From: Bacteroidetes bacterium RIFCSPLOWO2_12_FULL_35_15
Lineage (GTDB): Bacteria; Bacteroidota; Bacteroidia; 2-12-FULL-35-15
DNA length: 50,806 bases
Reading direction: 5' to 3'
Assembly: GCA_001769385.1 (NCBI GenBank)
Contig: MEPB01000048.1
Location: 85,548-136,353 of the forward strand
Below the pieces are notes generated by a model. That model made no database searches, was not told the origin of the DNA, and was given only the letters and a program-made list of their open reading frames with translations. This document shows positions 42,366 to 50,806 of the stretch, piece after piece; position 1 is the first letter of the stretch, and every line of letters starts with the position of its first letter. Position numbers and translations under genes: made by a program.

Positions 42366-43595
42366 ATGCGTCAAATTTCTGCTGATTATATTTTCCCTGT
42401 TTCTTCCGAACCTATTAAAAACGGGCTTGTAACTATTGATGATGCTGGCGTGGTGTTGAATGTGGCAGCAAATATATCCGAAATCGAAAATCCGAAATGC
42501 GAAATTGAATTTTATGAAGGGATTATTTGTCCTGGATTTATAAACACACATTGTCATTTGGAGCTTTCTCATTTGCGTGGGCAGGTGGCTGAACACACCG
42601 GAATGACGGGGTTTATAAATGATTTTATTAATAAACGAACAGCTTTCCCGGTTGAAGAAATTGAGTTGGCAATTGGTAATGCGGAAACTGAAATGATCAA
42701 AAACGGTATCGTTGCGGTTGGCGATATTTCTAATAATAGTAATACGTTCAAACAAAAAGCAAAAGGAAATTTAGCATATCATACATTTATCGAAATTTTT
42801 AACCTTGATCCAGCTAAAGCAGAAGAAGTTTTTGAAAAGGCGCTTAATTTAAGAGACCAGCTTCAACAGCTTTCAACTTTCAACTTTCAACTTTTCAACT
42901 CCATCGTTCCTCATGCACCTTATACAATGTCGGAAAGGTTATTGAAAATGATCGAGGGTTATGCGGTAGAAAATAAAAGTACTATTAGCATTCATAATCA
43001 GGAAAGCGAAGGAGAAAGCGAATTGTTTATTTCAAAGAGTGGTGTTATGTTTGATGCGTTTAGGGCAATGGGATTAAATGCTGATCTGATGCAAAAAACA
43101 GGTGTTAATTCCCTGAGATCAACACTGCCGTTTTTAAAAAATGTTTCTAAAATTTTATTGGTTCATAATACATTTACTTCCAAAGAGGATATCGATTGGG
43201 TAAACTCTCAACTCTCAGATCTCACATCTCAAGTCTCACATCTCACATCTCAAATCTACTTCTGTACCTGTCCGAATGCTAACTTGTATATCGAAAACAG
43301 GTTACCCAATTATAATTATTTTATAGAAAAAAATGCCCGGGTAACAATCGGAACAGATAGTTTAGCATCTAATTGGACTTTATCTGTGTTGGATGAATTA
43401 AAAACCATTACAAAATATTATCCTGATATTCCGTTGCAAACATTAATCACCTGGGCAACAAAAAATGGCGCTGAGCTTTTGGGATTTACACAATTAGGAA
43501 CTATTGAAAAAGGAAAAAAACCGGGATTGAATTTGTTGAAAAATGTAAATGGATTAAAAATTTCTGAACAAACGGAAGTTCTGAAGTTGATATAA
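42366..43595 (+). CDS. amidohydrolase family metal-dependent deaminase
   Basis: The protein has 409 residues. Metal ligands are present: H62-x-H64 in NTHCHLE, H210 (SIHNQE), H267 (LVHNTF) and D331 (IGTDSLASN). This pattern fits the cyclic amidohydrolases that deaminate nucleosides or guanine-like rings (SsnA/TRZ-ATZ/aminofutalosine deaminase type); the substrate is not fixed. Two segments are foreign to the family layout: residues 168-178 (QLSTFNFQLFN) and 281-297 (SQLSDLTSQVSHLTSQI). They are encoded by 7-base tandem repeats (42871-42899 and 43207-43255). The reading frame is intact, so the gene should still be functional. Confidence 0.82.
   Translation: MRQISADYIFPVSSEPIKNGLVTIDDAGVVLNVAANISEIENPKCEIEFYEGIICPGFINTHCHLELSHLRGQVAEHTGMTGFINDFINKRTAFPVEEIELAIGNAETEMIKNGIVAVGDISNNSNTFKQKAKGNLAYHTFIEIFNLDPAKAEEVFEKALNLRDQLQQLSTFNFQLFNSIVPHAPYTMSERLLKMIEGYAVENKSTISIHNQESEGESELFISKSGVMFDAFRAMGLNADLMQKTGVNSLRSTLPFLKNVSKILLVHNTFTSKEDIDWVNSQLSDLTSQVSHLTSQIYFCTCPNANLYIENRLPNYNYFIEKNARVTIGTDSLASNWTLSVLDELKTITKYYPDIPLQTLITWATKNGAELLGFTQLGTIEKGKKPGLNLLKNVNGLKISEQTEVLKLI
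42871..42899 (+). repeat. 7-base tandem repeat TTTCAAC inside the amidohydrolase gene
   Basis: TTTCAAC occurs at 42871, 42878 and 42885, followed by TTTTCAAC at 42892. It encodes residues 169-178 (LSTFNFQLFN). Confidence 0.9.
43207..43255 (+). repeat. seven degenerate 7-base units CTCANNT inside the amidohydrolase gene
   Basis: Units are CTCAACT, CTCAGAT, CTCACAT, CTCAAGT, CTCACAT, CTCACAT and CTCAAAT in direct order. Because 7 and 3 share no factor, three units give 7 residues: SQLSDLT, then SQVSHLT, then SQI. Confidence 0.92.
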
Positions 43596-46381: not shown

Positions 46382-46382
<1 letters not shown>

Positions 46383-47173
46383 TAGATGATGCTTAGCTGA
46401 TAACCTGCAAAATAGAGGATCAGAATGGCTGACCCAATTGCAATGCGGTAATATCCAAAAACTTTAAATCCGTGTTTGGTAAGAAATCCAATGAATGATT
46501 TTATGGCGATCATAGCAACAATAAAAGCTACCACATTGCCAACAATCAGTAAATTTATTTGTGTTGAATCTATTGAAATACCTTCTTTATAATAATCGTA
46601 CATTTTTTTTGCTGTTGCTGCAAACATAGTTGGAACAGCCAAAAAGAATGAAAATTCAGCAGCTGCTTTACGCGTTAGCTTTTGAGTTAAGCCTCCAATA
46701 ATTGTTGCAGCTGAACGGGATACTCCGGGGATCATTGCAATAACCTGGAATAGTCCTATTTTAAAGGCAGATGGATAAGAGGGGGGGGCATCTTTTTTAC
46801 CTTCGTTATTGAATAATTTGTCTAAAAATAAAAATACAATTCCACCCAGGAACAAAGTTATGCCCACCACCAACACATTTTCGAGTAATGCATCAATTGT
46901 ATCATTGAATAACAATCCGAAAACTACTGCTGGAATAAATGCTACCAAAAGTTTAAAATAAAAATCCAATGTTTGAAAAAATTTTTTCCAATACAATACT
47001 ATTACCGAAACAATTGCTCCCAGTTGAATTGCAACGGTAAAGAGTTTTGTAAATGGATCATGAGCAATGCCCATTATGGAGGAGCCAATGATCATGTGTC
47101 CGGTGGATGAAACCGGCAAAAACTCGGTAATGCCTTCGATAATAGCTAAAATAATAGCTTGGATGTACGACAT
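46382..47173 (-). CDS. uppP: undecaprenyl-diphosphatase UppP (BacA)
   Basis: The protein has 264 residues from the ATG at 47173 ([12 protein letters not shown]), the usual start and length. A longer open frame to 47236 adds 21 residues read from an A/T-rich 7-base repeat tract, so it is rejected. Motifs are [15 protein letters not shown] with the conserved Glu and Ser, and [14 protein letters not shown] with catalytic Arg and Ser. Eight helices are expected. The enzyme recycles undecaprenyl diphosphate to undecaprenyl phosphate for peptidoglycan and O-glycan carriers, which serves the glycosyltransferases in this window. The upstream neighbour is DUF3098. Confidence 0.93.
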
Positions 47174-47180
47174 AGAAAAA

Positions 47181-47246
47181 TGAGATTTGAGATAACAGAT
47201 ATGAGATTGAAATGTGGAGATTATCTCAATACTCACATCTCAATAC
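47181..47246. repeat. 7-base repeat tract upstream of uppP
   Basis: The left half reads TGAGAT-type units (ATTTGAG, ATATGAG) and the right half reads CTCAATA, CTCACAT, CTCAATA on the plus strand. The two halves are therefore inverted versions of the CTCANNT family found inside the amidohydrolase. The tract fills the 83-base gap between DUF3098 and uppP. Confidence 0.7.
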
Positions 47247-47256
47247 TTTTGACTTT

Positions 47257-47980: not shown

Positions 47981-50806
47981 TTACTTCATTTTGGTAACCG
48001 GAATAGTTATAATTCCATCGTTTGAAATAATTTGAATAAAATACAATCCTTCTCTGGAATTATCCATTGCAACAGGTATTAAGTTCTTTCCTATTGGCAA
48101 TTCAATCGATTCGTTATAAATAAGTTTACCAACAGGATTCATTATTTTTAAAGTATAATGATTACCAAGAGAATTGATTTCAATAGAAAAATCACCTTTA
48201 CTTGGATTAGGATAAACTTTTATTGAAGATTGAAAGTCGGTTGATACAATTCCTACAGTACTATTTACAAGAACAGTTTGAACAACCATACAACCATTTG
48301 AATCTGTAATTAAAACAGAATAGTTTCCACCCGTTAAAGAGGTTGCAGTTTGTGTCGTTTGAGCCAATGCATCGTTCCATAAATAATTATAAGGAGTTGA
48401 TCCACCCGAAACATTTACACTTGCTGTTCCATTGCTTCCGCCAGTTTCCGGAGTTGAACTTGTTGTTGCAGAAAGTGCGCTTGGTTCTGTAATTGTAACG
48501 GTAGTTGTTGCCGAACAAGCATTTGCATCAGTAACTGAAAGCGTATAGGTACCCGGGCAAAGATTATTTATTGACAATCCGAAAATACCACCCGGCACCC
48601 ACATAAATGTGTATGGCCCGGACCCACCTGATACTGTTGCTTGAGCGAAGCCATCACAGGCTCCATAGCAAGAAACATTTCCTTGTGCAAGGATGGAGGA
48701 TACGAGCACCAAAGGTTCACCAATTATAATAGTCTCAGTTATTGAACAGGAATTTGCATCCGTTATTGTACAGGTATAAGTACCGGCAGCTAATCCATTT
48801 GCAGTTGCCCCTGTACCACCACTAGGCGCCCATGAATAAGAATATGAACCTGTTCCACCGGAAGCGATAATCGTTGCGGAACCAGTGCTGCTTCCGTTAC
48901 ATAAATCATCGGTTTGAACGGTTGAAGCACTAAGCACCAATGGTTCGGTAATAGTAACAACCTGGTTTTGTGTATTCGCAGCTGCATCAGTAACTGTACA
49001 AGTATAAGTTCCGGCAGCTAAACCTGTTGCGGTAGCATCTGTACCACCACTTGGTGCCCATGAATAAGTATATGGACCCGTTCCTCCTGTTTGAGAAATA
49101 GTTGCAGAGCCTGTATTATCGCCATTACATAATACATTTGTTTGTGCGCTAATTGATGTCACTATTGTAGAGACAGAAGGTTCAATAATTGTAACTACCT
49201 GTGTTTTAGTGCAAGAGTTTGCATCCGTAATTGTGCATGTATAGGTGCCTGCAGTTAAACCTGTTGCTGTTGCAGCTGTCCCACCGCTTGGACTCCATGA
49301 ATAAGTATAAACTCCTGTTCCTCCTCCTGCAGAAATTGTTGCAGCCCCATCATTACCTCCATTTATAGTTACATTGGTTTGTGAACTGATGGATGATGTA
49401 AGTGCTGAAGGCTGTGTAATGATGACAGCCTGCGTTTTTGTACATAAATTTGCATCCTTAATGGTGCAGGTATAAGTGCCTGCTGCTAATCCACTTGCAG
49501 TTGCAACCGTTCCCCCGCCAGGTGCCCATGAATACGTATATGATCCTGCTCCCCCTCCTGCATTAATAGTGGCAGTACCGTTACTTCCACCAAAACAACT
49601 CACATTGGTTTGTGAACCGATGGAGGATGTAATCGCTGCAGGTTGAGTAATTGTGACAACCTGTGTTTTTGTACATAAATTTGCATCCGTAATGGTGCAG
49701 GTATAAGTAGCCGCAGCTAATCCATTAGCAGTTGCAGCCGTTCCACCACTTGGTGCCCATGAATATGTATAGGTACCTGTTCCGCCTCCTGCTGTGATCG
49801 TAGCAGATCCTGTGCTGGAACCATTACACAAAACATTGGTTTGTGAACTGATAGTTGATGTTAATGCAGCAGGTTGAGTAATGGTAACAATTTTTGCTAA
49901 TGTACAAGATACAGAACCGGATCCTGTAATTGTACAAGTATAGGTACCTGCCGCTAATCCGTTTGCAGAGGCTGCTGTTCCGCCACTTGGAGCCCATGAA
50001 TAAGTATAAGGTCCGGTTCCTCCGCTTGGTGCTACTGTTGCAGAACCCGTGCTGCCTCCATTACAAAGAACATTGATTTGAGTGGTGCTTGCTGACATTA
50101 CAGCAGGCTGGGTAATTGTAACAACTTGCGTTTTTGTACATGAATTTGCATCCATAATTGTACAGGTATAAGTACCTGCCGCTAATCCGTTTGCTGTTGC
50201 AGACGTTCCTCCGCTAGGTGCCCATGAATAAGTATAGGTACCTGTTCCTCCACCTGCTGTGACACTTGCAGAACCATTGCTGGAACCATTACATGAAACA
50301 TTTGTTTGTGAACCTATTGAAGATGTGAGCGCAGAAGGCTGTGTAATGGTAACCGCCTGAGTTTTTGTACATAAATTTGCATCCTTAATGGTACAGGTAT
50401 AAGTGCCTGCTGCTAATCCACTTGCAGTTGCAGCCGTTCCCCCGCCAGGTGCCCATGCATAAGTATATGTACCTGTTCCTCCTCCTGCTGTAACAGTTGC
50501 AGTGCCGTTACTTCCACCAAAACAACTCACATTGGTTTGTAAACCGATGGAGGATGTAATTGCAGAAGGTTGAGTGATTGTGACAACCTGTGTTTTTGTA
50601 CATAAATTTGCATCGGTAATGGTGCAGGTATAAGTAGCCGCAGCTAATGCGTTAGCAGCTGCTGCAGTTCCACCACTTGGTGCCCATGAATACGTAAAGG
50701 TACCTGTTCCGCCTCCTGCTGTGATCGTTGCAGATCCTGTGCTGGAACCATTACACAAAACATTGGTTTGTGAACTGATAGTTGATGTTAATGCAGCAGG
50801 TTGAGT
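47981..50806 (-). CDS. SprB-repeat protein with T9SS type A sorting tail; partial at N-terminus
   Basis: The frame is open to the window edge (942 codons seen), so the N-terminus and signal peptide are missing. It consists of about eleven SprB repeats of about 77 residues. Each starts TNV.CNG..TG.A and ends TCTITDAN.CTKTQ.VTITQP. Then comes a C-terminal T9SS domain (about 85 residues, VYPNPSKGDFSIE ... GLYFIQI). Each repeat is a beta-rich adhesin-like module, and the Cys pairs suggest disulphides. SprB-type proteins are exported by T9SS and serve adhesion or gliding. Units are extremely similar at DNA level, with a 927-base higher-order repeat (see findings). It is downstream of no close partner and has its own terminator. 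Confidence 0.9.
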   Translation of the reverse strand, partial: TQPAALTSTISSQTNVLCNGSSTGSATITAGGGTGTFTYSWAPSGGTAAAANALAAATYTCTITDANLCTKTQVVTITQPSAITSSIGLQTNVSCFGGSNGTATVTAGGGTGTYTYAWAPGGGTAATASGLAAGTYTCTIKDANLCTKTQAVTITQPSALTSSIGSQTNVSCNGSSNGSASVTAGGGTGTYTYSWAPSGGTSATANGLAAGTYTCTIMDANSCTKTQVVTITQPAVMSASTTQINVLCNGGSTGSATVAPSGGTGPYTYSWAPSGGTAASANGLAAGTYTCTITGSGSVSCTLAKIVTITQPAALTSTISSQTNVLCNGSSTGSATITAGGGTGTYTYSWAPSGGTAATANGLAAATYTCTITDANLCTKTQVVTITQPAAITSSIGSQTNVSCFGGSNGTATINAGGGAGSYTYSWAPGGGTVATASGLAAGTYTCTIKDANLCTKTQAVIITQPSALTSSISSQTNVTINGGNDGAATISAGGGTGVYTYSWSPSGGTAATATGLTAGTYTCTITDANSCTKTQVVTIIEPSVSTIVTSISAQTNVLCNGDNTGSATISQTGGTGPYTYSWAPSGGTDATATGLAAGTYTCTVTDAAANTQNQVVTITEPLVLSASTVQTDDLCNGSSTGSATIIASGGTGSYSYSWAPSGGTGATANGLAAGTYTCTITDANSCSITETIIIGEPLVLVSSILAQGNVSCYGACDGFAQATVSGGSGPYTFMWVPGGIFGLSINNLCPGTYTLSVTDANACSATTTVTITEPSALSATTSSTPETGGSNGTASVNVSGGSTPYNYLWNDALAQTTQTATSLTGGNYSVLITDSNGCMVVQTVLVNSTVGIVSTDFQSSIKVYPNPSKGDFSIEINSLGNHYTLKIMNPVGKLIYNESIELPIGKNLIPVAMDNSREGLYFIQIISNDGIITIPVTKMK
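48947..50806. repeat. 927-base higher-order tandem repeat within the SprB gene
   Basis: The tract 49615-49879 matches 50542-50806 almost base for base at a spacing of 927 bases, equal to four SprB units. For example the final bases before 50806 repeat those before 49879 exactly. The left limit given is approximate. Confidence 0.7.

Follow-up and report, generated by a model that had tools for sequence, protein, structure and literature searches.

The window, as we call the whole stretch of 50,806 bases of Bacteroidota DNA that was analysed, contains an amidohydrolase gene whose reading frame runs through short tandem arrays of heptanucleotides. A non-coding form of one of these heptamers lies at the start of bacA in the same window. 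The features are the following.

42366..43595, + strand: amidohydrolase gene, aminofutalosine-deaminase-like, 409 aa, ATG start; PF01979 (Amidohydro_1), E 6.4e-32
42476..42505, + strand: site A, weak heptamer array of ATCCGAA type, ATCCGAAATCGAAAATCCGAAATGCGAAAT, residues 37–47; Tandem Repeats Finder (TRF) period 14, lag-7 score 10.5
42870..42899, + strand: site B, TTTCAAC array, LSTFNFQLFN, residues 169–178; TRF period 7, lag-7 score 18.5
43205..43257, + strand: site C, seven TCTCANN units, NSQLSDLTSQVSHLTSQIY, approximately residues 280–298; TRF period 7, also 21, lag-7 score 28.0
47181..47247, no strand: inverted heptamer pair TGAGANN ... NNTCTCA at the bacA start, non-coding TCTCANN form; TCTCANN match at 47224–47242, facing TGAGANN by eye

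Sites B and C are the sole period-7 segments of the window with a lag-7 score of at least 12. Shuffling the window 20 times with a third-order Markov model gave period-7 scores of no more than 13.5; chance and composition are ruled out by these shuffles as the source of the arrays. Site A falls below the threshold of 12, which like the other array thresholds was set by this analysis, and a congener (L083) carries a clean GAAACAA array at its position. The units of site B are nearly identical. Those of site C vary at two of the seven unit columns, which hold all seven minority letters and span all three codon positions (6, 5 and 5). An earlier note on this DNA had described a TTTCAAC array encoding LSTFNFQLFN and seven heptamer units near residues 281–297; both are borne out by the plus-strand open reading frame (ORF) and by the period of 7 found by TRF. 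The note spoke of two invaded places, and sites B and C are real, but the gene has the third site A, and TCTCANN arrays are also read in frame in six further genes of this genome. It was also right that the frame is kept even though 7 is not a multiple of 3. The frame survives because three heptamers make 21 nt, and every frame then gives the same cyclic heptapeptide. TCTCAAA encodes SQISNLK without a stop, while its complement meets TGA.

The predicted fold of the protein is that of an amidohydrolase (AlphaFold2 model built from a 41-sequence alignment, mean pLDDT 93.9). The top Foldseek matches are nis_0429 (4m51, 3v7p) and the H. pylori aminofutalosine deaminase (7lkj), with E-values of at most 5.6e-27 and TM-scores of 0.78–0.83 for 4m51, 3v7p and 7lkj_A. 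H62, H64, H210, H267 and D331, which we take to be the metal-site residues of the amidohydrolase superfamily, are present and invariant across 41 aligned homologues. The best NCBIfam model, NF006269 (PRK08418, aminofutalosine deaminase family), gives 128.4 bits against a cut-off of 320, and the equivalog threshold is thus missed. Hence, the fold and the invariant putative metal ligands speak for membership of the aminofutalosine deaminases, but the curated bit-score cut-off does not. The same genome has a menaquinone-biosynthesis gene (PF02621, at L131) and a match to the MqnC model at 422.2 bits, just under the cut-off of 428.1; this model also matches 10 of 14 control genomes, two of them over the cut-off. 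The PF02621 gene and the near-cut-off MqnC match make a role of the amidohydrolase in futalosine-type menaquinone synthesis plausible.

In the AlphaFold2 model, site B lies between helix 149–167 and strand 177–182, and site C between helix 273–283 and strand 296–301, with a pLDDT below 50 at residues 286–290. Helix-to-strand loops of a TIM barrel are on the face opposite the active site, so sites B and C are expected, from this topology, on the barrel face away from it. The statement of the earlier note that both arrays lie between conserved metal-site blocks is therefore true in sequence but probably not in space.

The bacA ORF (46382–47236, minus strand) starts inside the inverted heptamer pair and its first approximately 20 residues look heptamer-encoded; the true start is probably a later ATG (MSYIQ). 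A 231/462-bp tandem repeat of nearly nine copies occupies 48751–50806 and is cut by the contig end, which is also the window end.

Array length and unit in orthologous genes

A whole-genome search found the amidohydrolase gene in 49 of 59 genomes and in 35 of the 36 congeneric ones (own genome included in each count); the genomes are MAG assemblies, one per species. Our own gene was aligned with the best 29 other congeneric loci, so that the best 30 of 35 congeneric loci were used, and with 18 loci from outside the genus. Site C measures 24 aa in our gene and 13–42 aa in congeners, against 13 aa in 13, 17 aa in four and 12 aa in one of the 18 out-of-genus orthologues. Site B measures 16 aa, against 7–13 aa in 17 of the 18 and 20 aa in the remaining one. 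Since most orthologues from outside the genus are shorter here, length was gained in frame, and on this point the comparison with orthologues that the earlier note proposed supports it (24 aa against 12–17 aa at site C). The nearest relative (L078, in genome G024) has a TCTCAAA array with 17 aa at site C, a difference of 21 nt from our gene, and this array is its only TCTCANN match genome-wide.

The site C lag-7 score is at least 11 in 16 of the 30 congeneric genes (own included) and at most 8.5 in the other 14. The unit changes with the species: TCTCANN, TCTCAAA, AATCAAG followed by ATCCAAG, TATCAAG, AATCCAA, AAATCCT, CCTCCAG, CAATTCT, AATCCGC and ATATCTA all occur. Even sister species differ, with CCTCCAG in G010 and TCTCANA in G018 (SH-aLRT 100), and AATCAAG in G002 and TTCTCAA in G022 (SH-aLRT 83), on a quick tree of three concatenated genes from which gappy regions were removed; six of its 29 inner branches are drawn open, and units were assigned to it by eye. 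None of the 30 amidohydrolase loci has a stop codon within the match. Outside the genus, period-7 arrays occur in three of the 18 orthologues (L029, L030 and L034), and arrays of periods 5, 6 and 8–11 in none of them. In one of these (L030), an in-frame AGTTGAA array at nt 472 lies near site B; it is the reverse complement of TTCAACT, in a similar place and the opposite orientation.

The genes for PrmC, MurC and HemL have arrays of the same kind. The PrmC linker ranges from 16 to 44 aa, with TCTCANN, GGAGANN, AATCAAG, AAATTCC, AGATTTC, CTCCAAC or no array depending on the species; two of the 30 loci, L158 and L161, were dropped, leaving 28 with a parsed linker, and some PrmC rows are fragments. 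MurC has two array sites, 1 and 2, at which the unit differs between species and both of which are net insertions relative to 9ir5. HemL has one site, with 11 arrays in 30 species. Across the amidohydrolase and these three genes in 29 other species, 59 period-7 arrays (score of at least 12) were found, spread over 46 of the 116 genes, while periods 4–6 and 8–13 gave no array at that score; these counts are conditional on the choice of the four genes, each of which has an array in the genome of the window. With the score relaxed to 9, periods 4–13 had 2, 1, 9, 76, 0, 3, 1, 0, 13 and 1 arrays, respectively. The scan covered periods 4–14, and period-14 rows (36 in one run, 7 in another) were counted as harmonics of 7.

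Several controls bear on this excess. A neighbouring gene in the window, which we take to be queA (349 aa in 29 loci, 346 aa in one), has no period-7 array in 30 loci, own included; further neighbours are presumably ispD and truB. Codon-shuffled amidohydrolase, prmC and murC gave 0.0 period-7 arrays per replicate. The lag-7 score exceeded that of synonymous recodings for 64 of 64 arrays at p ≤ 0.05 and for 59 of 64 at p ≤ 0.01 (pooled codon usage, own genome included), which rules out protein-level periodicity as a sufficient cause. The 225 kb of ORF sequence that flank 87 loci contain one array of period 7, five of period 6 and one of period 4; hence, the arrays are confined to few places. 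A sample of 1.25 Mb from five genomes including the window gave, at a score of at least 16, 12 arrays of period 7 (two of them in the amidohydrolase), 11 of period 21, eight of period 15 and seven of period 8, and eight of 23 period-7 arrays scoring at least 13 were within ORFs. The genome-wide period-7 excess is modest, and the striking excess is restricted to these few gene sites. In 27 out-of-genus HemL genes (of 56 matches) there was no period-7 array, one period-14 array made of heptamers, and one array each of periods 6 and 9.

HemL is where the unit can be followed at constant length. Eight HemL proteins with an array share a length of exactly 431 aa and their arrays align without gaps, with TCTCAAR, TTTCAAA, ATTCAAA, TTGCAAA, TCTGAAA or mixtures as units; the array segment also aligns gap-free with the best PDB match, 3k28. 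Among these eight genes, 88 of 424 pairwise differences (21%) are repeated identically at +7 nt, compared with 0–3% at lags 3–6 and 8–12, and with a mean of 0.7% and a maximum of 3.4% at +7 nt in 93 windows elsewhere in hemL. The lag-7 figure partly follows from the selection of array-bearing genes, and what it adds is that differing units share one register and one length. In our interpretation, a homologous array has evolved in concert here and has not been inserted repeatedly.

TCTCANN and other units across genomes

The genome of the window has 46+23 matches to TCTCANN, against 2+0 for a reversed control pattern. The three-unit TTTCAAC pattern (at most two mismatches) has a single genome match, which is site B itself, against three for its reversed control; the TTTCAAC array is therefore not a known intergenic heptamer of this genome. 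With up to one mismatch allowed, TCTCANN forms 28 clusters, of which seven are in frame and well inside ORFs of 292–566 aa, all with TCTCA on the sense strand. Their hosts are the amidohydrolase, PrmC, HemL and MurC (the last three each above their own NCBIfam cut-off), a NuoE-NuoF-like protein, the menaquinone-biosynthesis protein with PF02621 and a LuxE-family protein. The remaining 21 clusters are intergenic, in short ORFs or near a start codon, with the placement of L138 dependent on its true start. A further in-ORF mosaic of two heptamer families in this genome, GACAATA/GACAAAA followed by ATCCAAT, lies in a 406-aa ORF (L119, 2910–2976).

In short spacers, many of the other TCTCANN clusters are paired with facing TGAGANN units, as at L009; the gene behind this spacer is presumably atpG, and genes at other loci are presumably rpmJ and similar. 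At L009, L130, L134 and L140, heptamer hairpins take up the short spacer, reaching from close to a stop codon to the vicinity of the following start codon; judged by names assigned by eye, these spacers are apparently within ATP synthase and ribosomal protein operons. Of 11 intergenic copies that were folded, seven were equalled by no more than 2 of 200 shuffles and the other four by 7–17. The five in-gene arrays folded showed no significant hairpin, as a transposon or MITE might have left: 34 to 195 of 200 shuffles folded at least equally. No RNA hairpin is predicted within the amidohydrolase gene, for which the figure is 195.

In the phylum, 43 of 296 genomes, from 28 of 140 genera, contain the exact three-unit TCTCANN pattern, and within the genus its distribution is patchy, with 0 to 163 matches when one mismatch is allowed. 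Another heptamer family seems abundant in G205 of the same phylum, in which the reversed control pattern has 89+90 matches.

The likeness of units is 0.542 within species across sites and 0.550 between species; a species-specific unit lexicon, as expected from an invader, was thus not found. Units common to unrelated sites make up 14%, against 4.7% for position-permuted units, and a genus-level lexicon exists. In the seven species with an in-gene TCTCA-type array, TCTCANN has a median of 59 matches elsewhere in the genome, against 10 in the 15 species with other arrays only (p=0.02, uncorrected for phylogeny), a contrast that lends weak support to sharing between loci. The shared lexicon and the abundance link leave room for copying between loci. 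In-gene arrays vary in few unit columns (0 of 2,000 scattered controls reach the observed value), and the tendency of these columns to be adjacent is modest (25 of 2,000). The 12 intergenic arrays sampled show no such adjacency, with 1,407 of 2,000 controls reaching the value. A general rule of five fixed and two adjacent free letters is seen in in-gene arrays but not in the sampled intergenic ones, and was dropped.

A probable local copying process and its alternatives

We consider it probable that short heptanucleotide arrays at fixed, permissive places of housekeeping genes are made and homogenised by local 7-nt misalignment and filtered by selection, with the misalignment inferred from one genome per species. 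Replication misalignment in 7-nt steps would generate and homogenise an array in place, either through a net gain of three units (21 nt, seven codons) or through a transient misalignment that copies a neighbouring unit and leaves the length unchanged. Given that 7 and 3 are coprime, net changes would involve three units, be length-neutral or be compensated. A slip of a single unit would throw genes such as murC, generally regarded as essential, out of frame, and three-unit or length-neutral steps are therefore assumed. Purifying selection would keep the in-frame, stop-free versions wherever a change in length or sequence is tolerated, that is, in helix-to-strand loops and a domain linker. The arrays would then probably be passengers that the protein tolerates, making its surface loops longer or altering their sequence, and the amidohydrolase is predicted to be still active. 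A bolder form, which we hold to be rather unlikely, is a genus-wide process with a preferred 7-nt step, in which misalignment copies the neighbouring unit in place without insertion or frameshift and the loops of essential proteins drift in concert. If this were true, 7-nt templated substitution would count as a distinct way in which protein loops evolve, with the step set by one particular polymerase or repair factor.

The earlier note favoured invasion, in which dispersed, STRR-like intergenic heptamer copies enter genes and selection keeps the in-frame, stop-free landings. Parts of this stand: the arrays lie in frame between conserved blocks, length was gained, TCTCANN is dispersed far beyond its reversed control, a quarter of its clusters (7 of 28) sit in frame with TCTCA on the sense strand, species with in-gene TCTCA carry more TCTCANN elsewhere, unrelated sites share units beyond the permuted expectation, and the family is patchy in the phylum. 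We nevertheless judge invasion unlikely, since the TTTCAAC array has no other genome match, congeners have other units at the same sites, units are not species-typical, and the examined in-gene arrays lack the inverted arm found in many intergenic copies. Moreover, G024 keeps its TCTCAAA array though no other TCTCANN match exists in its genome, and HemL arrays differ in unit at identical length, so insertion alone is insufficient.

Three functional readings appear far less probable still. As 21 nt encode seven amino acids and TCTCANN places hydrophobic residues at spacings of 3 and 4, selection might favour a heptad-repeat amphipathic helix, and array peptides such as LSDLTSQVSHLTSQI do show an L..L...V..L...I pattern; in neuO, catalytic efficiency is reported to rise with repeat number (PMC8653822). 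Selection on protein would, however, give a 21-nt rather than a 7-nt periodicity, yet every one of the 64 arrays exceeds its synonymous recodings; the model has no helix at 284–295 (with low confidence at 286–290, perhaps from few aligned relatives), and AATCAAG, CCTCCAG and TCTCANN encode unrelated peptides at one site, which leaves the helix barely credible. A unit length that is not a multiple of 3 would also suit a phase-variable on/off switch, in which one-unit slippage frameshifts the gene, and E. coli neuO offers a precedent under the same rule (PMC8653822). Such a switch is very unlikely here: the matches at all 30 amidohydrolase loci are free of stops, variation at two of seven columns of site C should lessen one-unit slippage, and murC, prmC and hemL are, on general knowledge, housekeeping genes and poor candidates for switching. 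Equally improbable in our view is a selected function at the nucleic-acid level, with a protein or RNA recognising a fixed core (such as TCTCA plus two free bases) at a 7-nt pitch. The confinement of in-gene variation to few, modestly adjacent columns, the strong predicted hairpins of 7 of 11 folded intergenic copies and the several copies adjoining start codons would agree with it, but cores differ by species at one site, which argues against a single recogniser, and the adjacency signal is missing in the sampled intergenic arrays. That related species have different heptamers in the same positions speaks for copying within the locus over a single invading sequence.

Comparison with known heptamer systems

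Coding tandem repeats are expected in multiples of three; here, the unit is seven, the hosts are housekeeping enzymes, and the unit differs between sister species. The STRR repeats of cyanobacteria are dispersed heptanucleotide arrays, mostly outside coding regions. TCTCANN likewise is a tandem heptanucleotide with dispersed, mostly intergenic copies, whereas TTTCAAC has no dispersed copies in the genome and the host of both belongs to the Bacteroidota rather than the cyanobacteria. Local copying would give essential proteins a concrete means of adding heptapeptides to their loops or of rewriting those already there. Among the best-ranked literature matches, in which subscription journals are thinly covered, no title or abstract was found on heptamer unit turnover at orthologous coding sites. 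A 2025 survey of short tandem repeats (STRs) reports trinucleotide units as most prevalent in prokaryotic coding sequences and a high STR density in Bacteroidota (PMC12699852). Heptanucleotides have been described as the commonest long simple repeats in most surveyed genomes, and a 7-nt polymerase footprint has been suggested (Mrazek 2007, as cited in PMC4679880); this unexplained remark becomes testable through the present arrays.

Heptamers in a Nostoc intron are degenerate, base pair into a hairpin and vary in length by repeats (PMC3488679). They resemble the inverted intergenic TCTCANN form, but belong to a cyanobacterial intron outside protein genes (PMC3488679). G-rich heptamers of Xanthomonas and Nostoc are dispersed, mostly non-coding, under-represented in coding regions and capable of forming G-quadruplexes, with one G-rich unit per group (PMC4692102); unlike these, the in-gene arrays here are G-poor overall on the sense strand, are read in frame and show unit turnover. 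TAACTGA direct repeats are known from Beggiatoaceae, some cyanobacteria and five Bacteroidetes, often near start codons, and MacGregor noted that one orientation gives a heptapeptide repeat while the other brings stops (PMC4679880, section 9). TCTCANN shares the position near starts and the orientation-dependent stops, but TAACTGA is one fixed, mostly intergenic unit, and the sections of that paper drawn on here do not compare units between orthologous coding sites (PMC4679880). The neuO gene of E. coli K1 is similar in having heptanucleotide repeats in a bacterial coding sequence, an in-frame (AAGACTC)n whose frame is kept by multiples of three units only (PMC8653822). It is described as a prophage gene with on/off switching, in which one unit is repeated 14 to 39 times at the 5' end of the coding sequence (PMC8653822), whereas the arrays reported here consist of approximately three to nine often degenerate units in internal loops and linkers of housekeeping enzymes, with units that differ between species.
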